Assembly: GCF_004011175.1 (NCBI RefSeq) | Contig: NZ_RQXX01000001.1 | Location: 186,001 to 250,000, forward strand | Direction: 5' to 3' | Length of the DNA: 64,000 nucleotides | Origin: Mesobaculum littorinae | Lineage (GTDB): Bacteria; Pseudomonadota; Alphaproteobacteria; Rhodobacterales; Rhodobacteraceae | Shown here: in pieces, positions 6,608 to 21,571 of the stretch | Layout: every line of letters starts with the position of its first letter | Position numbering within the stretch: the stretch's first letter is position 1 | Position numbers and translations under genes: made by a program | The notes under the pieces: model-generated | What the model was told of the DNA's origin: nothing | Seen by the model: the letters and a program-made list of their open reading frames with translations, nothing else | Database searches by the model: none

Positions 6608-6662
6608 AATGCAGGGATCGCAACCGACCGGCATGGCCGGCCGATTGCGGTGGTTCCCTGGA

Positions 6663-7859
6663 TCAGTATTCGTCCATCGCCTCGATCTCTTCCCGAGTCG
6701 ATTCGCTGTAAAGGCGGATGTCGCTTCCGTCTTCGCTGCGCTGGATCGACAGGGTTTCGAAGGGCAGCTCGACCGAGCGTTCGCCCAGGCCCAGGAACCC
6801 GCCGACGCCGACCACGGCGCTGCCGATCTGGTCGCCGTCGAGCACCAGCTCTTCGACGTCGCCGATGCGCTCGTCGTTGGTGCCGTAGACCACCGTGTCT
6901 TCCAGGTCCTCGGCGGTCAGCTCGTCGATCGCGACCTCAGTGTAACCTTCGCGCACGGGCAGGCCGCTCGCGGCCGGGGTGGCGTCGGTTTCCTCGGTCA
7001 TCTCGGCTTCGGTCTCTTCGACGGTCGCCTCGGCGTCGGCCGCGGCTTCTTCCGCCTCGGTCTCGGCTTCGTCAGCCATCGACTGGTCGTCTTCGGACGC
7101 CTCGGCGCCCTCTTCCTCGATGTTCACCTGAGCGTCCGACTGCTGCACATCGATCTGGGCGTCTTCGCCTTCCTCGACCTGCACCTCGGCCTCTTCCTGC
7201 GACACGTCGACCTGGGCGCCGTCGGCCTCTTCCACGGTCACGACCGGCTCTTCCTGCTCGATCTGGACCTCGGGCTCTTCCTGTTCGCCCATCGTGATCT
7301 GAGGCTGCGCCTGCTCGACGACGATCTCGGGCTCGGATTCCTCGACCACGACGCTGGGTTCGGGGCGCACGAAACGCACGACCGGCTCGGGCTGCTCGAC
7401 CGAAACCTCGGGCTGCGAGGCGTCGACGCTCACGTCAGGCTCGGGCATCTGGATGGTGACGACAGGTTCGGGGATGTTGACGGTGACGACCGGCTGGGCC
7501 TGTTCCACGGTCACGGTGGGGGCCTGCTGTTCGACCGTCACTTTCGGCTGCTGCTGCTGCACGCGCACTTCGGGCTGCGGCTGCTCGACGGTGACCGTCG
7601 GCGCTGCCTGGTCGACGGTGACGTTCGGATCGTCGACGTCGACGTTCACCTGCGGTTCGGGCTGTTCGACGATCACCTGGCCGCCTTCGACCTCGGTCTC
7701 TGCGTCTGCATCCATGTCGCTTTCGGCACCCGAGGCGTCGACCTCTTGGGTCGCCTGCGCGGCGTCGGTGTCCATATCTTCTTCGGTGTCCTGCGCCATT
7801 GCGCCGGATGCGACGAGGGCGGTCAGAGCTACCGAGGCCATCATGGTCTTGAGGGTCAT
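6663..7859 (-). CDS. secreted PRC-barrel protein with 9-residue PxVxV repeats
   Basis: A 398-residue exported, very acidic protein. The start at 7859 follows GGGAGAC and gives a classical signal peptide (MTLKTMMASVALTALVASGAMAQ, cleaved after AMA). Residues about 60-200 are a tandem array with a period near nine residues: a Pro, then alternating hydrophobics, as in PTVTVEQPQ, PEVRVQQQQ, PKVTVEQQA, PVVTVNIPE, PVVTIQMPE, PDVSVDASQ and PEVSVEQPE. A Glu/Ala-rich linker follows. The C-terminal 100 residues contain a PRC-barrel (VVYGTNDERIGDVEELVLDGDQIGSAVVGVGGFLGLG). PRC-barrel proteins with such signal peptides are frequent in Rhodobacterales, but the array is longer than I would expect. It is monocistronic, with its own terminator. 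The role is unknown; a periplasmic or envelope scaffold is a guess. Confidence 0.85.
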   Translation of the reverse strand: MTLKTMMASVALTALVASGAMAQDTEEDMDTDAAQATQEVDASGAESDMDADAETEVEGGQVIVEQPEPQVNVDVDDPNVTVDQAAPTVTVEQPQPEVRVQQQQPKVTVEQQAPTVTVEQAQPVVTVNIPEPVVTIQMPEPDVSVDASQPEVSVEQPEPVVRFVRPEPSVVVEESEPEIVVEQAQPQITMGEQEEPEVQIEQEEPVVTVEEADGAQVDVSQEEAEVQVEEGEDAQIDVQQSDAQVNIEEEGAEASEDDQSMADEAETEAEEAAADAEATVEETEAEMTEETDATPAASGLPVREGYTEVAIDELTAEDLEDTVVYGTNDERIGDVEELVLDGDQIGSAVVGVGGFLGLGERSVELPFETLSIQRSEDGSDIRLYSESTREEIEAMDEY

Positions 7860-8117: not shown

Positions 8118-10073
<1,956 letters not shown>

Positions 10074-10155: not shown

Positions 10156-10941
10156 TCAGATGGCCAGATATTCGGCCCTGAGCTTTTCGTTGTCGAGGAC
10201 CTCTTGCGCCGATCCGTCGTAGACCACCGACCCGGTGTCGAGGATCACGGCACGATCGGCCAGTTTCAACGCCGCGACGGCGTTCTGTTCGACGATGATC
10301 GTGGTGATCCCCTGGTCGCGGATCAGGTTCAGCGTCTTCGCGATCTCCTGCACGATGACGGGCGCGAGGCCTTCGTAGGGTTCGTCGAGCAGCAGAACCT
10401 TGATGTCGCGCGCCAGGGCCCGCGCGATCGCCAGCATCTGCTGTTCACCGCCCGACAGCGTCACGCCCTCCTGCTTGCGCCGTTCGCCCAGGCGCGGAAA
10501 CAGCTCGTATAGCCGGTCGAGGGACCAGCCCACGGGCGGCGCGATCTGCGCCAGTTGCAGGTTCTCCTCGACCGTCAGTCCGGCGATGATGCGCCGATCC
10601 TCGGGCACCAGGGCGATGCCCGCCGCCGCGGCCTCGTAAGATTTCATCTTGTGCAGGGGCTGGTGGTCCAGCCAGATCTCGCCGCGCTTCAGCTCGGGCG
10701 TGCCGACCCGCGCGATGGTGCGCAGGGTCGAGGTCTTGCCCGCCCCGTTGCGCCCCAGCAGAGCCAGGATCTCGCCCTCGTGGACGTTGAAGCTGACGTC
10801 CTGCACGATGAAGCTTTCGCCGTAATACCCTTCGATGTTCCACACCGACAGAAAGGCCGGGGCGGTCACTGCGTGGTTGGCGTTGGGGTTCCAGTCCTCG
10901 GAGGTCGTGGGGGCGTTCATGGGGGTATCCTTGTCGGCCAT
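10156..10941 (-). CDS. livF: Liv-type ABC transporter ATP-binding protein LivF
   Basis: One of the two ATPases of a branched-chain amino acid/HAAT-type importer. The 261 residues contain Walker A GRNGAGKT (63-70), a Q-loop region ALVPEDRRI typical of LivF, signature LSGGEQQ and Walker B VLLLDEP. The start at 10941 overlaps the livG stop by one base (TGATG), indicating translational coupling; a longer in-frame extension into livG is a shadow. The N-terminus carries about 30 extra residues before the ABC domain. Because the operon ends in acs, the transported substrate may be a short-chain carboxylate or something metabolised to acetate rather than an amino acid; this is inference. Confidence 0.92.
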
Positions 10942-11699
10942 CAGTGGGCGGCTTCGCCGAGGTAAGCTTCCTGCACCTTGGGGTGGCCCTTGATGCGGTC
11001 GGGCGTGTCCTCGACCAGCGGCGTGCCCTGGGCCAGAACGGTGATCCGGTCGGCCAGCGAAAACACGACGTGCATGTCGTGTTCGATGATCACCATGGTG
11101 ATGTCGCGCTTGGTCCGGATCTCGCGCAGAAGCTCGATGGTGTTGTTGGTGTCGGCCCGCGCCATGCCCGCGGTGGGCTCGTCCAGCAGCAGAAGGCGCG
11201 GGTTCTGCGACAGGCACATCGCCATTTCAAGCCGCCGCTTGTCGCCGCGCGACAGGCTGCCGGCCAGCAGGTCGCGCTTGTCGGCCATGTTGACGTCGTC
11301 GAGCATCTGCATCGCGCCGTCGACAACCTTGCGTTCGCGCGCGACGCTTTCGAAGGCGTGCATGCGGAATGACCCGTCGCGCTTGGCAAAGATCGGGATC
11401 ATCACGTTTTCCCAGACCGACAGGTCGGCAAAGATCTCGGGCGTCTGGAACACGCGGGAAATGCCCATCTGGTTGATCTCGTGCGGCTTGCGCCCCAGCA
11501 CTGACTGGCCGTCGAACATGACGCTGCCGGTGTCGGGAATAAGCTTGCCGATCAGGCAGTTGAGCAGCGTCGACTTGCCCGCGCCATTGGGGCCGATGAT
11601 CGCGTGGCACGAATTCTCGGCGATACTCAGGTTGACGTCGCCGAGCGCCTGCAGCCCGCCAAAGCGTTTGCCCACGTTCTTGACTTCGAGAATGCTCAT
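10941..11699 (-). CDS. livG: Liv-type ABC transporter ATP-binding protein LivG
   Basis: Second ATPase of the importer, 252 residues. Walker A GPNGAGKS and Walker B LLLLDEPTAGMA are standard. The signature is LSRGDKRRLEMAM in place of canonical LSGGQ, as seen in many LivG-like proteins of this subgroup. It begins at ATG 11699, with GGAG eight bases upstream inside the end of livM; an adjacent GTG at 11702 is an alternative. The livM stop lies only a few bases before the start, so the genes are one transcription unit. Confidence 0.93.
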   Translation of the reverse strand: MSILEVKNVGKRFGGLQALGDVNLSIAENSCHAIIGPNGAGKSTLLNCLIGKLIPDTGSVMFDGQSVLGRKPHEINQMGISRVFQTPEIFADLSVWENVMIPIFAKRDGSFRMHAFESVARERKVVDGAMQMLDDVNMADKRDLLAGSLSRGDKRRLEMAMCLSQNPRLLLLDEPTAGMARADTNNTIELLREIRTKRDITMVIIEHDMHVVFSLADRITVLAQGTPLVEDTPDRIKGHPKVQEAYLGEAAH

Positions 11700-11703
11700 C
11701 ACC

Positions 11704-12909
11704 TTACTCCGCCGGTTGCTTGGATGCGGCGCGGGCCTCTGGGTCCCCGGCCTTGCGGTTGCGCCGCCCCACGACGCCGCGGATGCGCCGCCCGCCCTCG
11801 ACCAGCCCGCCGGGCAGGAAGATGACGACCAGCATGAACAGAAGCCCCAGCGTCAGGTGCCAGCCCTTGCCCACGAAGGGATGCACGAGCGTGACCAGCG
11901 CCGTCTCCAACCCGTCGGGCAGGGCGCCGAACCAGGTGTGCAGCACGCTGTCGTTGATCTTCGAGAAGATGTTTTCGAAGTACTTGATGAAGCCCGCGCC
12001 CAGCACCGGCCCGATCAGGCTTCCCGCGCCGCCGAGGATGGTCATGAGCACGACCTCGCCCGAGGCCGTCCACTGCATCCGCTCGGCCCCGGCCAGCGGG
12101 TCCATCGCGGCCAGAAGCCCGCCGGCCAGACCCGCGTACATGCCCGAGATCACGAAGGCCGCCAGCGTGTAGGGCCGGGTCGACAGACCCGTGTAGCTCA
12201 TCCGCTGCTGGTTCGACTTGACGGCCCGCAGCATCATCCCGAAGGGCGAGCGGAAGATGCGGATCGACAGCCAGAAGGCCACCAGCATGATCAGCCCGGA
12301 CATGTAGTATCCCGCGTTCAGCTGAAATTCCCACGGGCCCGCAAAGATCGTCGTGGTCGCACGCATGTCGATGCCGAAAAGGTTGGTGGTCGGTAGCGAT
12401 CCGGTCGCGGCCGGGTCGAAGATGCGGGGATCGGACAGCGACAGTTGCAGCCCCGTTTCGCCGTTCGTCAGCGGCGTCAGGACCGAATAGGCCAGCGCAA
12501 AGGACATCTGCGCGAAGGCCAGCGTGAGGATCGAGAAGTAGATGCCCGAGCGGCGCAGCGACACGTAGCCGATCAGGGCGGCGAAGAGCCCGCCCACGAC
12601 CACTGCCAGCACGATGGCGGGAATCACGTTCATCGACAGAAGCTTGAACATCCACACCGCGGCATAGGACCCGGCACCGAGAAAGGCGGCATGTCCGAAG
12701 GACAGGTAGCCCGTCAGCCCGAAAAGGATGTTGAAGCCGATGGCGAAGATCCCGAAAATCACGAAGCGCTGCATCAGGTCGGGATAGCCCGCGTTGAACT
12801 GCGCCAGCGACGACGCCTGCGGGAAGGGGTTCAGGATCACCGGCGCCAGCAGGACGAGCAGGGCGACGACGATCAGCAGAATGGTGTCCTTGCGGCCAAA
12901 GCTCTGCAT
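11704..12909 (-). CDS. livM: Liv-type ABC transporter permease LivM
   Basis: Inner-membrane permease of the importer, 401 residues with about ten hydrophobic segments. Family stretches include [44 protein letters not shown] and [19 protein letters not shown] hydrophilic loop of about 50 residues (around 150-200) interrupts the usual order and contains [13 protein letters not shown] and a [11 protein letters not shown] segment; the protein is longer than E. coli LivM-type cores and ends in a charged tail. GGAGGAGTAATTCC precedes the ATG, and the livH stop lies four bases before it. Confidence 0.93.
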
Positions 12910-12913
12910 GGAA

Positions 12914-13945
12914 TTACTCCTCCATCACGCCGCGGCGGCCCATCAGGCCGCGCGGGCGGGCCAGAAGGACGATGATCGCGACGAGGTAGATGATGATCTG
13001 GTTGATGCCGGGGATCAGGTCGATCACCGCGGTCATCGAGGCGAAGCTTTCGAGGATGCCCAGAAGGAACCCGGCCAGCACCGCGCCGGCCAGCGACCCC
13101 ATGCCGCCCACCACCACGACGACGAAGCTGAGGACCAGGAAGTCCATCCCCATGTGGTAGTTGGGCGCATTGATTGGCGCGTACATCACCCCCGCCAGTC
13201 CCGCGACGGCGGCGGCGATGCCGAACATCGCGGTGAAGCGGCGGTCGATGTTGATGCCGAGAAGGCCCACGGTTTCGCGATCCGCCATGCCCGCGCGGAC
13301 CACCATGCCGAAGGTGGTGTAGCGCAGGAAGGCGAAGACCGCGGCGATGATGATCGCGGCGAAAGCGAAGTAGACCAGCCGCCAGTAGGGATAGATGATG
13401 GTGTTCGGGTCGAAGCCCACGAGGACGCCGAAATCGAACGACCCCCGGAACGCCTGCGGCGCGGGGGTGGGGATCGGATTGGCGCCGTAGAAGGCTTTGA
13501 TGATCTCCTGCAGCACGATGGCCAGCCCGAAGGTTACGAGGATCTGGTCGGCATGGGGGCGCTTGTAGAAATGCTGGATCAGCCCGCGCTCCATCACCAC
13601 GCCGACGATCAGCATGACCGGAATCGCGAAAAGGATCGCCAGCGGCACCGCCCAGTCGACGATCGCGGCGCCGGTGCTTTCGCCGAACCACAGCACGACA
13701 TAAGGCGTGTCGACCTGCATCGGGTTGCCCAGGAAATCGGTGCGCGTCTCGTCGATGGTGGTCTGGCTGAGCGTCAGGATGCGCTGCAGCGTCACGGCGC
13801 AGAAGGCGCCGATCATGAACAACGCGCCATGGGCGAAGTTCACCACCCCCAGCGTGCCGAAGATCAGCGTCAGGCCGAGAGCGATCAGCGCATAGGCCGA
13901 CCCCTTGTCTAGGCCGTTGAGGATCTGAAGAAGTATCGCGTCCAT
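12914..13945 (-). CDS. livH: Liv-type ABC transporter permease LivH
   Basis: Partner permease of LivM, 343 residues, about eight to nine membrane segments. It opens with the family start [25 protein letters not shown] and contains the conserved [15 protein letters not shown] and [23 protein letters not shown] hydrophilic insertion (about residues 55-85, [20 protein letters not shown]) lies between the first segments and probably forms a periplasmic loop. It is separated from livK by 279 bases that contain a strong hairpin, so livHMGF may be expressed below livK. Confidence 0.93.
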
Positions 13946-14188
13946 CTGGGGTCCGTCTGTCTGTGCGATTGGTCAGGGCGGCAGGTCACTGCGGCAGGTC
14001 GCTGCGGCGGGGCAATGCGGTCGGGCAGGTGGGGTATCAGGTCAGCGGGTCAGGCCAGTGAGGTCAGGGGCGGCGAGGTCCGGCCAGCTTGGTCCGGCGA
14101 GCATGATCAGGCTGGCGAGGTGTGGGCGTTGGCGGCCCACGCCCCCGGGTCACGGGGCCCGCGACGATCATTCGGCCCAGGCCGGATC

Positions 14189-14215
14189 GGGGGCGCGCCA
14201 GGCCGGCGCGCCCCC
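14189..14215 (-). promoter_or_regulatory. intercistronic stem-loop between livK and livH
   Basis: A perfect 11-bp stem (GGGGGCGCGCC / GGCGCGCCCCC) with a five-base loop begins ten bases after the livK stop on the minus strand and has no following T-run. Stem-loops at this position are known to stabilise binding-protein mRNA and reduce downstream permease expression in other ABC operons. The rest of 13946-14224 is GC-rich sequence with loose GGTCAG-like repetition and no gene. Confidence 0.6.
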
Positions 14216-14224
14216 TGCGGGACC

Positions 14225-15598
14225 TCAGGCGCCGGGGTTGCATTCCCCCAGCGCGCCGCCGGCGAACATCGGGTGATCGGGCTCGTAGGTGACCTGTTCG
14301 GTCGGCGTCGCCTCGATGATCTCGACCAGATCGAACTCGTTCTCCGGGTTCTCCTTGCCGCGGGTGACGACGACATCCTTGAAGCACTGGTGATCGGCGC
14401 CGCGGTACAGCGTGGGGCCGTTGCCCATGCCATCGAACTCGAAATCCTCGAGCGCCTCGGCCACGGCGCAGGGGTTGAACGACCCCGCGCGCTGCACCGC
14501 GTCGGCGTAAAGCAGCGTCTGCACGTAGCAGGTATGCGCGGCCTGGCTGGGCGGGAAGCCGTATTTCGTGCCGAAGCTCTGGGTGAAGGCGTTGGTGCCG
14601 ACATAGCGGCTGCCAAGCTCGTTCTCGAGCTTCCAGTCCCAGTTCTGGCTGCCGGGGATCCCGGCGATGTTGCGCCCCGCGCCGCGTGCCATCAGCTCGG
14701 AATAAAGCGGCACGACGATCTCGAACTGCTTGCCGTTGGCCTGCGCCTCCTTCAGCCCGAACTGCACGGCGTTGGTCAGCGAATTGACCATGTTGCCGCC
14801 GTAGTGGTTGAGGAACAGCACGTCGGCGCCCGAATTCAGGACGGGCGCGATGTAGGACGAGAAATCCGTCGCGGCGAGCGGGGTGAGCACATTGTTCACC
14901 GTCTCCCAGCCCAGGTCTTCGGTCACGGCCTGCATCGATTCCTGCGTGGTCCAGCCCCAGGTATAATCGGCGGTCAGGTGATAGGCGCGGCGGTCGGTGC
15001 CATAGAGGCTTTCCAGCACCGGCCCCATCGCGGCGCCCGACTGGTAGGCGTTGAAGAAGTGGCGGAAGCCGTTCGCCTTCTTGTCCTTGCCGGTGGTGTC
15101 GTTGGAATGGGTCAGCCCCGACATGAAGATCACGCCGGCCTCCTGGCAGAGGCCCTGCACCGCCACGGCCACGCCCGAGGACGAGCCGCCCGAGATCATG
15201 ATCGCGCCGTCCTTCTCGATCATCGACCGGGCGCTGGCACGGGCGGCGTCGGACTTGGTCTGGGTGTCGCCGGTCACGAAGGCCACGCGCTTGCCCATGA
15301 TGCCCGTGCCGTCGAGGTTCTTTTCAGAGAAGGTCTGCAGCATGCCGCCGTCGCCTTCGCCGTTCAGGTGTTCGACGGCCAGTTCGAAGGCGCGCAGCTC
15401 GTCCGCGCCCTCGTCGGCATAGGGCCCGGTCTGCGGCACGTTGAAGCCAAGGGTCACCGTGTCGCCCGTCGGCGCATTGGTGAACCCTTGGCCCTGCGCC
15501 CAGGACGCACCGGTAAAGATCGTGGGCATGGCAAGGCCCGCCCCGGTGGCCGCACCGGTGCGCAACAGCCCGCGGCGGGTGAAGGTCGCTTTGGTCAT
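14225..15598 (-). CDS. ABC transporter substrate-binding protein, Liv/HAAT type, Tat-exported
   Basis: Periplasmic receptor for the LivHMGF importer, 457 residues. The N-terminus has a twin-arginine signal (TRRGLLRTGAATGAGLAMP) ending near SWAQG. The mature protein is a type I periplasmic binding fold: VTLGFNVPQTGPYADEGADE, a ligand-site region around MISGGSSSGVAVAVQ, and HLTADYTWGWTTQESM. Export through Tat suggests it folds, perhaps with a cofactor or ligand, in the cytoplasm. GGGAGGACATTC precedes the ATG. It is first in the leftward operon and divergent from the XRE regulator. The ligand is unknown; linkage to acs hints at a compound yielding acetate. Confidence 0.88.
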   Translation of the reverse strand: MTKATFTRRGLLRTGAATGAGLAMPTIFTGASWAQGQGFTNAPTGDTVTLGFNVPQTGPYADEGADELRAFELAVEHLNGEGDGGMLQTFSEKNLDGTGIMGKRVAFVTGDTQTKSDAARASARSMIEKDGAIMISGGSSSGVAVAVQGLCQEAGVIFMSGLTHSNDTTGKDKKANGFRHFFNAYQSGAAMGPVLESLYGTDRRAYHLTADYTWGWTTQESMQAVTEDLGWETVNNVLTPLAATDFSSYIAPVLNSGADVLFLNHYGGNMVNSLTNAVQFGLKEAQANGKQFEIVVPLYSELMARGAGRNIAGIPGSQNWDWKLENELGSRYVGTNAFTQSFGTKYGFPPSQAAHTCYVQTLLYADAVQRAGSFNPCAVAEALEDFEFDGMGNGPTLYRGADHQCFKDVVVTRGKENPENEFDLVEIIEATPTEQVTYEPDHPMFAGGALGECNPGA

Positions 15599-15740
15599 GA
15601 ATGTCCTCCCGTTTGATTGGGCGCGCGGGCTCTCCTCCTCAAAAGACCCGACCGCACCATGCTCCTTTTACGGAACTGACCTCAGGATGGGGCGCCGGTG
15701 AAAACATCGCAACAAGTATGCGGAACCGTTGAATTATTTT

Positions 15741-15778
15741 GTAAATAACTGAACAATCATGGCGGGTGCTGTGTAAAT
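15741..15778. promoter_or_regulatory. paired GTAAAT boxes in the livK/XRE divergent promoter
   Basis: Two identical GTAAAT hexamers (15741-15746 and 15773-15778) lie 32 bases apart, close to three helical turns, in an AT-rich island within the 228-base divergent region. Each sits in a T-rich context. This spacing suits cooperative binding of a dimer such as the adjacent XRE regulator; no binding motif is established for this protein. Confidence 0.35.
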
Positions 15779-15826: not shown

Positions 15827-17491
15827 ATGTCGGCAGGAGAGCGGGACAACCGGGGAACCGGGGGGCGGATCCGGGCGCGGCGGTTGGACCTGGGGATCCG
15901 GCAGGCCGGACTGGCGGCGCGGTTGGGGATCTCGGCCTCCTACCTCAACCTGATCGAACATGATCGGCGCAGAATCGGCGGCAGGTTGCTGAACGCCATC
16001 GCGCGCGAATTGGACACCGAGCCGGGCGTGCTGGCCGAGGGGGCCGAAGTCGGGTTGCTCGACGCACTGCGCACCGCCGCGGCCATGGTCCGGCACGACG
16101 CGGCGCCGCATGGGGGTGCGGCCGCGGGGGGCGAGGCTGCCGTCGCTGCCACCGCCGCTGTCACCGACGCTGCCGGCCGCGCGGGGGCAGCCGGTCCGGG
16201 GCCCGCCGCGCGGCCGGCCAGCCTTGCGGAGCCGGGATCCCCGCCCGAGCTGGATCGGCTTGAGGCCTTTGCCGCCGCCTATCCCGGCTGGGCGGGGCTG
16301 CTGGCTGCGCAGGCGCGCCACATCGCGCAGCGTGACCAGGCCCTGGCGACGCTCAGCGACCGGCTGACGCATGATCCCTTCCTGTCGGAATCCATGCACG
16401 CGCTTCTGTCGGCCGCGACCTCGATCCGCGCGACGGCGACGATCCTGCGCGATGAGCCCGAGCTCGAGCCCGACTGGCGCGCCCGGTTCCACCGCAACCT
16501 CGACAGCGACGGGCAGCGTCTTGCCGACACGGCTCGCGCGCTTGCGGCCTATCTCGACGGCGCCGCCGACCCCGCGCAGGCAGCGGCCGCCAGCCCGCAG
16601 GAAGAGGTCGAGGCCTGGCTCGCCGCCCGCAACTATCGCCTGCCCGAGCTGGAGACCGAACTGGAGCCCGGGCTGAACCCCGACGCGGACCCGCACGACG
16701 TCTTCGACCCTTCGGGCCCAGGCCGTGCCCATGTGCGCGACACCGGCGCCGATAGCCCCGCGGCCGCGTCCGGTGACGCAGGCGCGCAGCCACAGCAGCG
16801 GTCGCCCGGCGCCGTGCCGACGTCTCCGCCCGGCTTCGCTGCGCTTCTGTCGGCACCCGACGCGCCGCAAAGCGCGGCGGGGCGCGCGCTGGCCCGGGCG
16901 CACCTGTCCCGGGCGCGGGACGAGGCCCGGGCGATGCCGCGCGCCGCCCTTCTGGCCGAGCTTGCGCACGGGATCGATCCGGCGCGGATCGCGGCGCGCT
17001 TCGGCGTCGGCCCGGGCGCGGCACTACGGCGGCTGGGCGGGCTGGAGGCTGCGGCCGCCGGGCGTCCGTTCGGCCTGATCCTTTGCGACGGGACGGGCAC
17101 GACGACCTTCCGCCGTCCGCTGGACGGGTTCGCGTTGCCGCGGTTCGGGGCGGGCTGTCCGCTCTGGCCGCTCTATCAGACGCTGGGCCGTCCCGGCTGG
17201 CCCTTGCGTGCCGTGCTGGAGCTGCCCGGTCAGCCCGCCCGCCGCTTCACCGCATGGGCGGTGGCCGAAACGCGGCGCGCGGGCGGCTTCGACGGGCCCG
17301 AGATCGTCGAGGCGGCGATGCTTCTGACCCCCGGGGCCGACGCGTTGCGAACCTTGGGCGGCGCAGACTCCGGCCCGCCGCCGCCGGACCCGGTCGGTAC
17401 GAGCTGCCGCATCTGTCCCCGCGGGGGGTGCCTAGCCCGCCGCGAACCATCTGTCCTGGCAGCGTCGGAGGAGGGCGGCGGCCTGTCCTAA
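15827..17491 (+). CDS. RamB/ScfR-like XRE transcriptional regulator with histidine-kinase-like segment
   Basis: A 554-residue regulator. Residues about 13-65 are an XRE helix-turn-helix (RIRARRLDLGIRQAGLAARLGISASYLNLIEHDRRRIGG), as in RamB and the short-chain fatty acyl-CoA regulators. The C-terminus has the DUF2083-type Cys cluster CRICPRGGCLARREPS (around 525-540). Between them there is no IrrE-like HExxH domain. Instead residues 185-239 resemble a HisKA dimerisation/phospho-acceptor domain, with His191 at the acceptor position but without the usual acidic residue after it or the RTP motif. Low-complexity Ala/Gly/Pro linkers around 90-140 and 290-345 make it longer than usual members. It is divergent from livK-acs and upstream of the response regulator and kinase, so it likely controls acetate or short-chain acid use. 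Confidence 0.85.
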   Translation: MSAGERDNRGTGGRIRARRLDLGIRQAGLAARLGISASYLNLIEHDRRRIGGRLLNAIARELDTEPGVLAEGAEVGLLDALRTAAAMVRHDAAPHGGAAAGGEAAVAATAAVTDAAGRAGAAGPGPAARPASLAEPGSPPELDRLEAFAAAYPGWAGLLAAQARHIAQRDQALATLSDRLTHDPFLSESMHALLSAATSIRATATILRDEPELEPDWRARFHRNLDSDGQRLADTARALAAYLDGAADPAQAAAASPQEEVEAWLAARNYRLPELETELEPGLNPDADPHDVFDPSGPGRAHVRDTGADSPAAASGDAGAQPQQRSPGAVPTSPPGFAALLSAPDAPQSAAGRALARAHLSRARDEARAMPRAALLAELAHGIDPARIAARFGVGPGAALRRLGGLEAAAAGRPFGLILCDGTGTTTFRRPLDGFALPRFGAGCPLWPLYQTLGRPGWPLRAVLELPGQPARRFTAWAVAETRRAGGFDGPEIVEAAMLLTPGADALRTLGGADSGPPPPDPVGTSCRICPRGGCLARREPSVLAASEEGGGLS

Positions 17492-17785: not shown

Positions 17786-18154
17786 ATGGGCCGACGTGTC
17801 CTTCTGGTCGAGGACGAGCCGAACATCATCGAGGCGATCCGCTTCATCCTGTCGCGCGATGGCTGGACGGTCGAGGCCCGCTCGGACGGGCAGGGAACGC
17901 TCGACGCGGTGCGGCGCAGGCGGCCGGATCTGGTGATCCTCGATGTCATGCTGCCCAATCGCTCGGGCTATGACGTGTTGCGCGACCTGCGCGACGACCC
18001 GCAGCTTTCGGGGCTGCCGGTGCTGATGCTGACTGCCCGCGGCCAGAAGAAGGACCGCGACCTGGCCATGAGGCTGGGGGTCAGCCGCTTCATGACCAAG
18101 CCGTTTGCCAATGCCGAGATGCTGACCGCCGTCCGTGACCTCGCCGGGGGCTGA
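17786..18154 (+). CDS. single-domain response regulator (receiver only)
   Basis: A 122-residue CheY-like receiver with no output domain. Acidic pocket ED at 9-11, phosphorylation site Asp53 in LVILDVMLPNRSG, Thr in MLTARG and Lys105 in FMTKPF are all present, so phosphorylation competence is expected. GGAGGAGGAGCC precedes the ATG at 17786. It is followed one base after its stop by the next gene. The obvious phosphodonor is the symporter-kinase two genes downstream. Without a DNA-binding domain it must act through a protein partner; the upstream XRE regulator with its kinase-like segment is the attractive candidate. Confidence 0.92.
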   Translation: MGRRVLLVEDEPNIIEAIRFILSRDGWTVEARSDGQGTLDAVRRRRPDLVILDVMLPNRSGYDVLRDLRDDPQLSGLPVLMLTARGQKKDRDLAMRLGVSRFMTKPFANAEMLTAVRDLAGG

Positions 18155-18155
18155 G

Positions 18156-18887
18156 ATGGCGGCCCCGCGCGAGCCCGTGTTCCTGGAGCGGCAAAACTAT
18201 CGCCGCCGCCGCCTGATGGACGCCGCGCGCCTGCTGCCGTGGCTGGGGGCGGCGGTGTTCGCCGCGCCGCCGATCTGGGGCGCCGCGGGGTCGACAGCCC
18301 TGCGCGGTCTTTACGTCTTTGCCGTCTGGGCCGCGCTGATCGCGGCTGCCTTTATTCTGTCGCGCCGTCTCGTCGCGCCCGCATCCGAGGGGCCGGAGGG
18401 CGGGGCGGCTGCGCCGGACCCCGACCCGACGCCCCGCCGCCCCGGGGACGCGCCGGCGATCGGCCCCGAGGATCAGGGCCCGGGGACGGTCGGGCCGGCA
18501 TCGCGGGGTCCCGCCGGCCAGTTCCGCGACGACCACACCTTCGCCGGCCATTCGCCCGAAGGCCAGCTCTGCGCGGACCGACTGCCTGCGGACCAAGCCC
18601 CGGGTGGTCCGCGACTGGCCCCGTCGGGCGGTCCTGCGGTGCGCCTGGCGGGCGCGGGTCGGACGGCCCCGTCTGCCATCTGTCTCGACATGCACCACAA
18701 GGGCGACCCGGCGCGCCGGGACGCGGATGCAGGCCCCGTTGCACGGGCCGGCGACGGGACGGTCAGGGATCGTCCGGCCATCTCCGAGCCTGCACGCCCG
18801 GCTGCGCCCCGTGGGGGTCGCGCCAAAGAGAGCCCCGGCGCGGGCGACGTTGCCGCGGCCAGGTCCGCCCGCGGAGGCCGGGCGTGA
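18156..18887 (+). CDS. membrane protein with long disordered tail, between response regulator and kinase
   Basis: A 243-residue protein. The first 30 residues are basic (LERQNYRRRRLMDAARLL), then come two membrane segments (about 28-45 and 55-75, the second AVWAALIAAAFILSRRLV). After residue 80 the sequence is a 160-residue Pro/Gly/Ala/Asp-rich, probably disordered, cytoplasmic tail. It starts at ATG 18156, one base after the regulator stop, and its TGA overlaps the GTG start of the kinase (GTGA), so the three genes are translationally coupled. I recall only a short two-helix protein at this place in related clusters; the tail looks like a lineage-specific extension. Function unknown; it may assist the kinase in the membrane. 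Confidence 0.75.
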   Translation: MAAPREPVFLERQNYRRRRLMDAARLLPWLGAAVFAAPPIWGAAGSTALRGLYVFAVWAALIAAAFILSRRLVAPASEGPEGGAAAPDPDPTPRRPGDAPAIGPEDQGPGTVGPASRGPAGQFRDDHTFAGHSPEGQLCADRLPADQAPGGPRLAPSGGPAVRLAGAGRTAPSAICLDMHHKGDPARRDADAGPVARAGDGTVRDRPAISEPARPAAPRGGRAKESPGAGDVAAARSARGGRA

Positions 18888-21571
18888 CGCTGGGCTTCAA
18901 CCTGCTGGTCGCGGTCTGCCTGAGCTATGTCGCAATGCTCTTCGCAGTCGCCTTCTGGGCCGAACAGAGGGCGCTGCGCGGGCGGCTGGGATGGTTGCGC
19001 TCGCCTTGGATCTACACACTGTCGCTGTCGATCTACTGCACCGCCTGGACGTTCTACGGCGCGGTGGGCTATGCGGCGCGGTCGGGGCTGGAATATGTCA
19101 CCATCTATCTCGGGCCGACGCTGGTGATGATCGGCTGGTGGGGGCTTCTGCGCAAGCTCGTGGCCATCGGGCGCAGCCAGCGCATCACCTCGGTCGCCGA
19201 CCTCCTCTCGTCGCGCTACGGCAAGTCCAACGCGCTGGGGGTGATCGTCACGCTGTTCGCTGTGGTGGGCACCACGCCCTACATCGCCTTGCAGCTGCAA
19301 TCGGTCACGCTGTCCTTTGCCGTTTTCGCGGCGCAGGGGGGCGGTCCCGGTGCCACTGATCCGGGGCTGGCCGACCCCGAGGGAACGGCGCTTTGGGTCG
19401 CGGCGGGGCTCGCGCTTTTCACCGTCATCTTCGGAACCCGCAACCTGGACGTCAACGAACGCCACCACGGCGTGGTCACGGCCATCGCTCTCGAAGCCGT
19501 GGTCAAGCTGCTGGCCCTGCTCTTCGTGGGCGTCTTCGTCGTCTGGGGCCTAGCGGGCGGCCCGGCCGAGATGTTCCGCGCCATCGAGGCGTCGCCGCTC
19601 GCGACATGGCAGATCCCGGGCGCGCGCTGGGCGGGCCTGAGCTTTCTTTCCGCGGCGGCGTTCATCTGTCTGCCGCGGATGTTCCACGTCCTCGTCGTCG
19701 AGAACGCGGACGAGCGTCATCTTGCGACCGCCGCCTGGGCCTTTCCGGCCTACCTGTGCCTGATGTCGCTCTTTGTCGTGCCGATTGCCGTGGTGGGGCT
19801 GGCGATGATGCCCGAGGGGGCGAACCCGGACCTTTTCGTGCTGACCGTCCCGCTGGCGGCCGAACGTCCCGGGCTGGCGATGTTCGCCTTTCTCGGCGGA
19901 TTTTCGTCGGCCACCTCGATGGTGATCGTCGCGGCGATCGCGCTGTCGACGATGGTGTCGAACCATGTCGTCGTCCCGATCTGGCTGTCGGTGGTGCGCG
20001 GCGGGGCGCAGGTGTCGGGCGACGTGCGCAAGGTGGTGCTGCGGGCGCGACGCATCTCGATCGCGGGGCTGCTGTTTCTTGGGTACGTGTATTTCCGCCT
20101 TTCGGGTGGGGGGACGGCGCTGGCGACGATCGGGCTGATTTCTTTCGTGGGGGTGGCGCAGGTGCTGCCTGCGCTTCTGGGCGGCGTGTTCTGGCGCGGG
20201 GCGACGCGGGCGGGCGCGATCTGCGGGCTGTGCGCGGGCTTCGCGATCTGGCTTTACGCGCTGTTGCTGCCCAGTCTCGGCACGGGGGCCGCGTTTTCGG
20301 CCGGGATGCTGGCGCAGGGGCCCGGGGGGGTGGGCTGGCTGCGTCCGCAGGCGCTCTTCGGGATCGCCACGATGGATCCGGTGATCCACGCGCTCTTCTG
20401 GTCGATGCTAGTCAATACGGCGATCTTTCTCGCCGTGTCGCTTGCCACCTTTCCCGGCCCGGTCGAACGCCTGCAGGGCGCCGATTTCGTCAACGTCTTC
20501 CGCTATTCCTCGGGCGCGCGGGGCTGGTCGCGACACATGGCCGAGCCGGAGGACCTGCTGATCATGACCCAGCGCATCCTGGGGCCCGGCGAGGCGCAGG
20601 CGCTGTTCCAGTCCGCCGCCGCCGCGCAGGGCAAGCAGGGCTACCTGCCCGATGCGACGCCCGAGTTCCTGGAAAGCCTGGAGCGCGTGCTGGCGGGGTC
20701 GGTCGGCGCGGCCACGGCGCACGCGATGATGGGCCAGATCACCGGCGGCAGCGCCATTTCGGTCGAGGACCTGATGCGCGTCGCGGACGAGACCGCGCAG
20801 ATCATGGAGTACTCCAGCCGTCTGGAAGAGAAGTCTGCCGAGCTGGGCCGCACTGCCCGGGCGCTGCGCGAGGCCAATGACAAGCTGACCCGGCTGTCGG
20901 TCCAGAAGGACGCGTTCCTGGGGCAGATCAGCCACGAGCTGCGCACGCCCATGACCTCGATCCGCGCATTCTCGGAGATCCTGCGCGACGGGGACGGGAT
21001 CGGCGCGCCCGAGCGGACGCGCTATTCCGGCATCATCCATGACGAGACCCTGCGGCTGACGCGGCTGCTCGACGATCTGCTGGATCTCAGCGTGCTGGAG
21101 AACGGGCAGGTCACGCTTCACCGCGAGCGGGTCGCACTGGGCGAGGTGATCGATCGCGCGCTGGCGGCGTGGCAACCCGCGGGCGGGCTGCGGATCGAGC
21201 GTCTGGGCGGCGATGAAAAGGTGCGGATCGACACCGATCCCGACCGCCTGGCGCAGGTGTTCCTGAACCTCGTGGCCAATGCGGCGAAGTATTGCGACGC
21301 CCCGGACCCCGTCCTGCGCATCGCGGTGCTGGCCGGTCCCGAGGCGGTGACCGTCGATTTCATAGACAACGGCCGCGGCATCCCGCGCGAGGATCAGGGC
21401 GTGATCTTCGAGAAATTCTCGCGCGTCGGCGACACCTCGGCCGCGGGCGGGGCAGGGCTGGGGCTGGCGATCTGCCGCGAGGTGATGGCCCGGCTGGGCG
21501 GCACGATTGCCTATCTTCCCGGACAGGGCGGCGGCGCCTTCCGGGTGACGCTGCCGCGCAAGGCGGGCTAG
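18884..21571 (+). CDS. CrbS-like sodium/solute symporter-sensor histidine kinase fusion
   Basis: An 895-residue inner-membrane sensor. Residues 1-510 form an SSS-family symporter module of about 13 helices (starting LGFNLLVAVCLSYVAMLFAV, with ITSVADLLSSRYGKS and GTTPYIALQLQSV). A STAC-like linker (FLESLERVLAGSVGAATAHAMM) and a coiled coil follow, then the HisKA box QISHELRTP with His684, N box NLVANAAKYC, G1 box DNGRGIP and G2 box GGAGLGLAI. All kinase motifs are intact. The GTG at 18884 was chosen because of the GTGA overlap with the previous gene; an open frame extends upstream but only as a shadow. CrbS in Vibrio and Pseudomonas governs acs, so a role in the acetate switch is likely here; the ligand may be acetate or another organic acid. 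Confidence 0.92.
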   Translation: MTLGFNLLVAVCLSYVAMLFAVAFWAEQRALRGRLGWLRSPWIYTLSLSIYCTAWTFYGAVGYAARSGLEYVTIYLGPTLVMIGWWGLLRKLVAIGRSQRITSVADLLSSRYGKSNALGVIVTLFAVVGTTPYIALQLQSVTLSFAVFAAQGGGPGATDPGLADPEGTALWVAAGLALFTVIFGTRNLDVNERHHGVVTAIALEAVVKLLALLFVGVFVVWGLAGGPAEMFRAIEASPLATWQIPGARWAGLSFLSAAAFICLPRMFHVLVVENADERHLATAAWAFPAYLCLMSLFVVPIAVVGLAMMPEGANPDLFVLTVPLAAERPGLAMFAFLGGFSSATSMVIVAAIALSTMVSNHVVVPIWLSVVRGGAQVSGDVRKVVLRARRISIAGLLFLGYVYFRLSGGGTALATIGLISFVGVAQVLPALLGGVFWRGATRAGAICGLCAGFAIWLYALLLPSLGTGAAFSAGMLAQGPGGVGWLRPQALFGIATMDPVIHALFWSMLVNTAIFLAVSLATFPGPVERLQGADFVNVFRYSSGARGWSRHMAEPEDLLIMTQRILGPGEAQALFQSAAAAQGKQGYLPDATPEFLESLERVLAGSVGAATAHAMMGQITGGSAISVEDLMRVADETAQIMEYSSRLEEKSAELGRTARALREANDKLTRLSVQKDAFLGQISHELRTPMTSIRAFSEILRDGDGIGAPERTRYSGIIHDETLRLTRLLDDLLDLSVLENGQVTLHRERVALGEVIDRALAAWQPAGGLRIERLGGDEKVRIDTDPDRLAQVFLNLVANAAKYCDAPDPVLRIAVLAGPEAVTVDFIDNGRGIPREDQGVIFEKFSRVGDTSAAGGAGLGLAICREVMARLGGTIAYLPGQGGGAFRVTLPRKAG

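Follow-up and report, generated by a model that had tools for sequence, protein, structure and literature searches.

Can part of a sensor kinase become a working part of a transcription factor? The question is raised by a locus of Mesobaculum littorinae, lying in a 64,000-nucleotide stretch of DNA (hereafter the window), in which a regulator of the ScfR family carries a segment that resembles the phospho-acceptor domain of the histidine kinase encoded downstream (Table 1). The initial annotation had placed both reading frames correctly, and had counted about 17 identities in an ungapped alignment of regulator residues 185-239 with kinase residues 678-732, His191 facing the acceptor His684; we count 18 of 55, the kinase being numbered from the GTG at 18884. 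Within the kinase, this placement of 185-239 is the best one (score 57, next 19), and none of 2000 shuffled regulator segments equalled the score of the real alignment. A BLASTP comparison of regulator and kinase recovered an overlapping stretch (regulator residues 159-209, E = 1e-4 for a single comparison). A chance match of the segment to the kinase was rejected on these grounds, together with the low scores of the decoy windows described below.

Table 1. Features of the regulator-kinase locus, with positions in the window.
Feature	Position	Strand	Basis or remark
Acetyl-CoA synthetase-like gene (acs), far end of divergent gene run	8118..10073	-	ORF; homologues in close loci
Divergent ABC transporter genes	10941..15598	-	ORFs; solute-binding protein 14225-15598, permeases, ATPase
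Paired box TGTAAA-N26-TGTAAA, divergent promoter	15740..15777	+	Sole exact copy in window and genome
XRE regulator of the ScfR family (554 aa), carrying a captured DHp domain	15827..17491	+	Pfam HTH_3 and ScfRs
HTH_3 DNA-binding domain, residues 15-67	15869..16027	+	Pfam 36.8 bits
HisKA/DHp-like domain, residues 165-247	16319..16567	+	Profile comparison with neighbour-type kinases 95.7-99.3%; AlphaFold2 model
His191, acceptor-equivalent histidine	16397..16399	+	81/81 close, 31/34 distant members
ScfRs C-terminal domain (residues 409-543) with C444, C527, C530, C535	17051..17455	+	Pfam 54.2 bits
Receiver-only response regulator	17786..18154	+	Pfam Response_reg only; start is a chosen internal ATG
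Small ORF, two hydrophobic stretches, located between the receiver and kinase genes	18156..18887	+	Sequence; start chosen
CbrA/CrbS-like transporter-histidine kinase	18884..21571	+	Pfam HisKA 60.9, HATPase_c 83.3 bits; HisKA at 20906-21106

The regulator is common, with full or partial matches (E up to 1e-5) in 185 of the 198 genomes of the window's family, its own included. For the analysis of close members we used the best 80 of 572 confirmed loci, from Rhodobacterales genera, Rhodobacteraceae or Alphaproteobacteria. When a segment profile of 81 sequences was compared by hhalign with the DHp domains of neighbouring kinases, they matched at 95.7% with a score of 49, histidine on histidine. 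A set of 120 windows, in forward and reversed orientation, was taken from the regulator, the kinase, the receiver and three other genes. Scores were 36-49 for the three windows of the kinase that contain the DHp domain, 16 for the best one outside DHp and regulator, and up to 25 for reversed windows of the regulator. A plain HMMER search of PDB sequences with the segment profile returned no kinase and two chance-level matches (E 0.18 and 0.79), indicating that this kind of search is too weak here.

More distant members were then informative. A profile of residues 138-277 matched in 59 of 385 genomes of the class, usually twice per genome, once in a frame near 500 aa and once in a frame near 900 aa; the latter is a CbrA/CrbS-like kinase in nearly all stretches examined, L238 being the exception. 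Outside the family, 36 distant regulators were retained (E below 1e-13), and 34 of them examined at the sequence level (G263 and G395 were left out). Pfam HisKA (PF00512) gave no match at E up to 1 in the window regulator, matched at that level in 10 of the 81 close members (best E 0.004), and exceeded its cut-off of 26.9 bits in four of the eight distant members scanned (38.7, 33.7, 33.0 and 31.9 bits); several distant segments look more HisKA-like than the one of the window. The profile of distant members matched at 99.6% the 36 of 45 distant CbrA/CrbS-like kinases that the motif captured (nine were not), and at 97% the 19 further kinases encoded in the same genome as the window, with which the close-member profile hardly matched (5.8%). 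On these comparisons we regard as settled the identity of the segment as a homologue of the HisKA/DHp domain, as first proposed, although the window copy itself has no Pfam HisKA match.

Structure prediction discriminates less. The AlphaFold2 model of residues 138-277 (pLDDT 85) is a helix hairpin, with helices at 153-182, 184-209 and 215-246. The top eight Foldseek hits were histidine kinase or DivL chains (DivL at rank 5), but with E values of 0.12-0.66. VIA aligned model positions 46-112 with HK853 252-319 (4jau) at Z 8.9, His191 falling on residue 260; Z values of 8-9.7 were equalled by unrelated hairpins, which is the chance range for helical hairpins, and the top VIA row was not a kinase. 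The structural match is therefore compatible with a DHp domain, and not proof of one. That such matches are common among unrelated hairpins is also what would be expected if the captured domain were a mere dimerisation bundle of helices, making no contact with two-component proteins, a reading to which we return with the gene neighbourhood.

Is the segment simply an ordinary part of ScfR regulators? This was rejected. Among 26 ScfR proteins of relatives, found through their C-terminal domain, the DHp segment is present in 13 (58-142 bits), while the other 13 gave no positive match; two of the latter, scanned with Pfam, have HTH, PF06114 and ScfRs domains and no HisKA. The window regulator itself belongs to the ScfR family (RamB, PccR, MccR/PrpR), HTH_3 and the PF09856 C-terminal domain (ScfRs) being present in all 81 members, and differs by the segment from the 13 proteins that gave no match. 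The initial annotation had supposed that the segment replaces the IrrE-like domain, PF06114, which in the window regulator reaches only 12.5 bits, under the cut-off of 22. This supposition had to be abandoned: PF06114 is found in all eight distant DHp-type members scanned, alongside HTH and ScfRs, and in the four with HisKA above cut-off, HisKA lies between the HTH_3, Peptidase_M78 and ScfRs domains. The DHp domain was therefore an insertion, with erosion of the IrrE-like part in the lineage leading to the window. It entered, probably in a single event, behind the HTH and ahead of the acyl-CoA/iron-sulfur sensing part. In PrpR, the IrrE-like part (domain DIII) is described as forming half of the CoA cavity (PMC6765138). 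Cysteines C444, C527, C530 and C535, invariant in the 81 members, align with the iron-sulfur ligands of PrpR (alignment to 6cyj; ligands as given in PMC6765138). Since all four cluster cysteines are present, the C-terminal domain likely provides a second, metabolic input, though the IrrE-like half of the cavity is reduced in the window regulator.

From which kinase was the domain captured? Against the kinases of its own genome, the segment scores 27.3 bits with the neighbour and 14.3 with the next (20 scored of 27 HisKA kinases, the other seven not being captured by the motif). Profile comparisons thus point to CbrA/CrbS-like kinases, to which the neighbour belongs, in keeping with the resemblance noted initially. 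In a tree, the segments form one clade (support 100/100) drawn inside the CbrA/CrbS-like kinase group, but this nesting is not significant in the AU test (p 0.54 and 0.36). The tree has few columns (72) for its 112 rows, and uses 12 of the 80 close regulators; L118 was entered as the window kinase, and L118, L124 and L126 were left out of the rows of other kinases. Derivation from this kinase consequently rests on profile similarity and not on the tree. Nor do regulator and kinase clearly co-vary, identity in real pairs being matched or exceeded in 42 of 500 shuffled pairings.

Judged from the aligned members, the regulator keeps residues that receivers meet on a DHp domain, while catalytic residues of the H-box decay. 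His191, invariant in the close set, is kept in 112 of the 118 members compared: 112 of 115 (two Gln and one Phe otherwise), the remaining three (L260, L261 and L263) having Phe, Phe and Tyr. These losses are confined to three genera, which retain the domain itself. Position +4 from the histidine (residue 195), which we take to face the receiver on a DHp domain, is Ser or Thr in 80 of 81 close sequences and in 112 of the 115 members. A stripe at +4, +8, +11 and +15 fits S/T, A/S, S/A and I in 107 of 115 members, with letters chosen from the regulators' own columns; +8, +11 and +15 were taken as receiver-facing because PDB entries for rewired HK853 name the matching residues in their titles (A268, A271, T275, with H260). 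Across 20 kinases of the genome, the neighbour alone fits all four stripe positions, and three others fit three.

By comparison, the kinase signature of Glu at +1, Arg at +3 and Pro at +5 decays in the regulators. The window regulator has Ala at both +1 and +5 and so lacks the catalytic acidic/Pro signature; across the members compared, Pro is not among the six commonest residues at +5. The absence of a catalytic Glu after the histidine, claimed initially, is true of the window copy but not of its family, position 192 being Glu in 73, Asp in six, Asn in one and Ala in one (the window) of the 81 close sequences. It is a peculiarity of this copy, two congeners (L157 and L158) having Asp. Glu or Asp occupies +1 in 82 of the 115 members, and Glu in only three of 34 distant ones. 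Pfam found no HATPase_c catalytic domain in the window regulator, which is thus not itself a kinase.

Could His191 nevertheless be a live phospho-acceptor, phosphorylated by the receiver or by the ATPase domain of the kinase, with the regulator as the end of a phosphorelay? ChpT and Spo0B, which are DHp-based phosphotransferases, offer models for such a relay, and it would account for the conserved histidine, for the Ser/Thr at +4 and for the acidic +1 residue of 79 of the 81 close members. We consider it unlikely, as Phe, Tyr or Gln stand in for the histidine in three genera that keep the domain, and the acidic residue is missing from the window copy and seldom Glu in distant members.

The gene neighbourhood also bears on possible partners. 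Pfam found no transporter family in the window kinase, so that its type rests on another match: 10ed, an entry described as the CbrXA SLC5-STAC structure (PMC13022988), is matched at E 6e-112 by a profile built from 18 kinases of this type, including that of the window. The small ORF preceding the kinase possibly recalls CbrX, by position and make-up, CbrX being described as a two-helix peptide bound to CbrA (PMC13022988). In 126 receivers (80 close, 46 distant), both Asp positions are present in all, the Lys in 125, and the T or S is kept; from Lys to stop there is a median of 19 residues and at most 51, a stretch so short that these proteins are receiver-only. Domains and loci alike thus confirm the early description: the DHp segment follows a DNA-binding domain, and the gene shares an operon with a receiver-only response regulator.

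An arrangement in which the regulator is followed by the receiver-only response regulator and then by the kinase is widely conserved, with exceptions. Of the 80 close loci, where the segment and its histidine are conserved as well, 79 have the receiver downstream in the same orientation and 78 the kinase; the examined stretch of L059 ends in the receiver. L062 (11290-15200) holds the regulator alone, with neither receiver nor kinase, and downstream of it unrelated genes that by eye are of housekeeping type. Of the 34 distant loci, 25 have a same-strand receiver no more than 1 kb away, and 28 have the kinase in the stretch examined. The receiver is absent from the stretch in L208, L215, L219, L220 and L227, lies 2.9 kb off in L198 and 4.1 kb off in L218, and is on the opposite strand, by the kinase, in L222 and L226. 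One genome (L221 and L241) has a receiver gene by the DHp-type regulator and a second receiver by the kinase on another contig. At the genome level, regulator and kinase co-occur in 35 of the 36 distant genomes, the kinase being the second match in 34 and found by direct search in G463; direct search found no full-length kinase in G263, which is 68% complete.

These exceptions bear on a second alternative, in which the segment pairs with the DHp domain of the kinase itself and tethers the regulator to the membrane until a signal arrives. DHp domains dimerise, and the segment is most like the neighbouring type of kinase. Against pairing, L221 has a nearby same-strand receiver (less than 1 kb away) but no kinase beside the regulator, the stretch of L198 has its distant receiver and no kinase either, and the receiver-facing stripe is well conserved; we consider it improbable. 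The dimerisation bundle introduced above seems to us equally improbable: it is helped by the occurrence of receivers where the regulator is absent, but fits poorly with a near-invariant histidine, small stripe residues, operon linkage and the co-occurrence of the kinase in almost all distant genomes.

Such regulator-less cases were found at nine distant kinase loci (HK score over 800; L228, L229, L230, L232, L233, L234, L236, L239 and L240), in genomes that showed no DHp-type regulator. There the receiver match ends 2-18 residues before the end of its frame, and in L228, the one of the nine scanned with Pfam, the ORF has a receiver domain and no DNA-binding domain. Output-less receivers thus work without the DHp-type regulator in these genomes, and the idea that a LuxR-type partner replaces the regulator there was not borne out. 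L229 has a LuxR-type response regulator (6615-7286, minus strand; Pfam) in addition to the receiver-length one beside its kinase, and is a possible intermediate.

On the other side of the regulator, the divergent genes presumably encode an ABC transporter, and the gene at the far end of the run is what we take, from its motifs, to be acs. Homologues of the solute-binding protein and permease adjoin the regulator in many of the 80 close loci. The sequence TGTAAA occurs twice, 32 +/- 1 bases apart, in 54 of 80 upstream stretches (of 81, one being too short), 51 of these pairs at exactly 32, and no such pair appeared in 200 rounds of shuffling of the upstream stretches. Across 26 genomes of the family we found 19 sites in 15 genomes: eight in the divergent region between regulator and transporter, seven at an acetyl-CoA synthetase gene and four elsewhere, that is 15 of 19 at the regulator's divergent region or acetyl-CoA synthetase genes. 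All seven acs sites have a single orientation, and six precede the first Met codon of the frame by 123-200 bases; the seventh, in L282, lies inside an open frame that continues beyond it, leaving the start position ambiguous. In these genomes, a letter-reversed control pattern occurred three times, never inside the 1.5 kb examined around acs or regulator genes. In L276 and L286 (site at 1501), TGTAAA pairs were seen beside genes that by eye encode a LacI-type regulator and a sugar-isomerase-like protein, and there probably represent another operator.

Sites of ScfR proteins are described as two near-identical boxes (PMC10370305), a habit that the paired box shares. We infer that the regulator, rather than another protein, binds the candidate site TGTAAA-N26-TGTAAA. 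The same source mentions Paracoccus Pden_1785, only as clustered with a two-component system (PMC10370305); it may be the Paracoccus orthologue of the window regulator.

How would the kinase then reach the DNA? We hold, with slightly more confidence than doubt, that the captured domain is best explained as a pseudo-DHp on which a receiver docks, as on DivL, here carried by an ScfR-family regulator of acs. The membrane kinase would phosphorylate the receiver-only response regulator, whose phosphorylated form would dock on the pseudo-DHp of the regulator, in the manner of DivK~P on DivL, and change its DNA binding or its oligomeric state. The divergent transporter-acs genes would be controlled in this way through the paired box, the iron-sulfur/acyl-CoA input of the C-terminal domain acting alongside. 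The scheme takes up what computation has shown, namely the DHp homology, its insertion, the missing ATPase domain, the stripe, the operon linkage and the acs-linked site; the docking step and its effect on DNA binding are proposed by analogy. DivK, like the window's receiver, is a single-domain response regulator. The precedent is the binding of DivK~P by Caulobacter DivL at its DHp face, DivL being reported as devoid of kinase and phosphatase activity, and this binding as unaffected by the change Tyr550His (PMC4211667). DivL differs in being a full kinase-like protein that regulates the activation of CtrA, whereas the DHp domain of the window lies directly inside a DNA-binding regulator.

Several observations count against docking. 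The histidine is conserved more than pure docking needs, nine kinase loci have a receiver but no regulator, nine of 34 distant loci lack a same-strand receiver inside 1 kb, L062 has neither receiver nor kinase, and real regulator-kinase pairs are not clearly more similar than shuffled ones.

The system is comparable to CrbS/CrbR and CbrA/CbrB in its SLC5/STAC-type kinase, nearby acs gene and acs-linked DNA sites. Published CrbR is described as a LuxR-type DNA-binding response regulator (PMC9100948), whereas the response regulator of the window is receiver-only, with no LuxR-type part, and DNA binding is entrusted to a separate protein. In the literature searched, judged by titles and the beginnings of abstracts, no description of a HisKA domain in an ScfR regulator was found. 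We give a chance just short of even to the wider proposal of a split two-component output, in which the phosphorylated receiver docks on the captured DHp domain, and kinase and acyl-CoA/iron-sulfur signals meet in the acs regulator, in many Alphaproteobacteria.

To our knowledge, the means by which single-domain response regulators that lack an output domain alter transcription are largely an open matter. If the docking reading is true, a kinase DHp domain turned into the docking part of a transcription factor would be one concrete route for receiver-only regulators, and this reading predicts the partner, the residues and the DNA site involved. Two-component control and ScfR (acyl-CoA) control of acetate use would then have been merged, and the CrbS-type output for acs would have been rebuilt in many Alphaproteobacteria.
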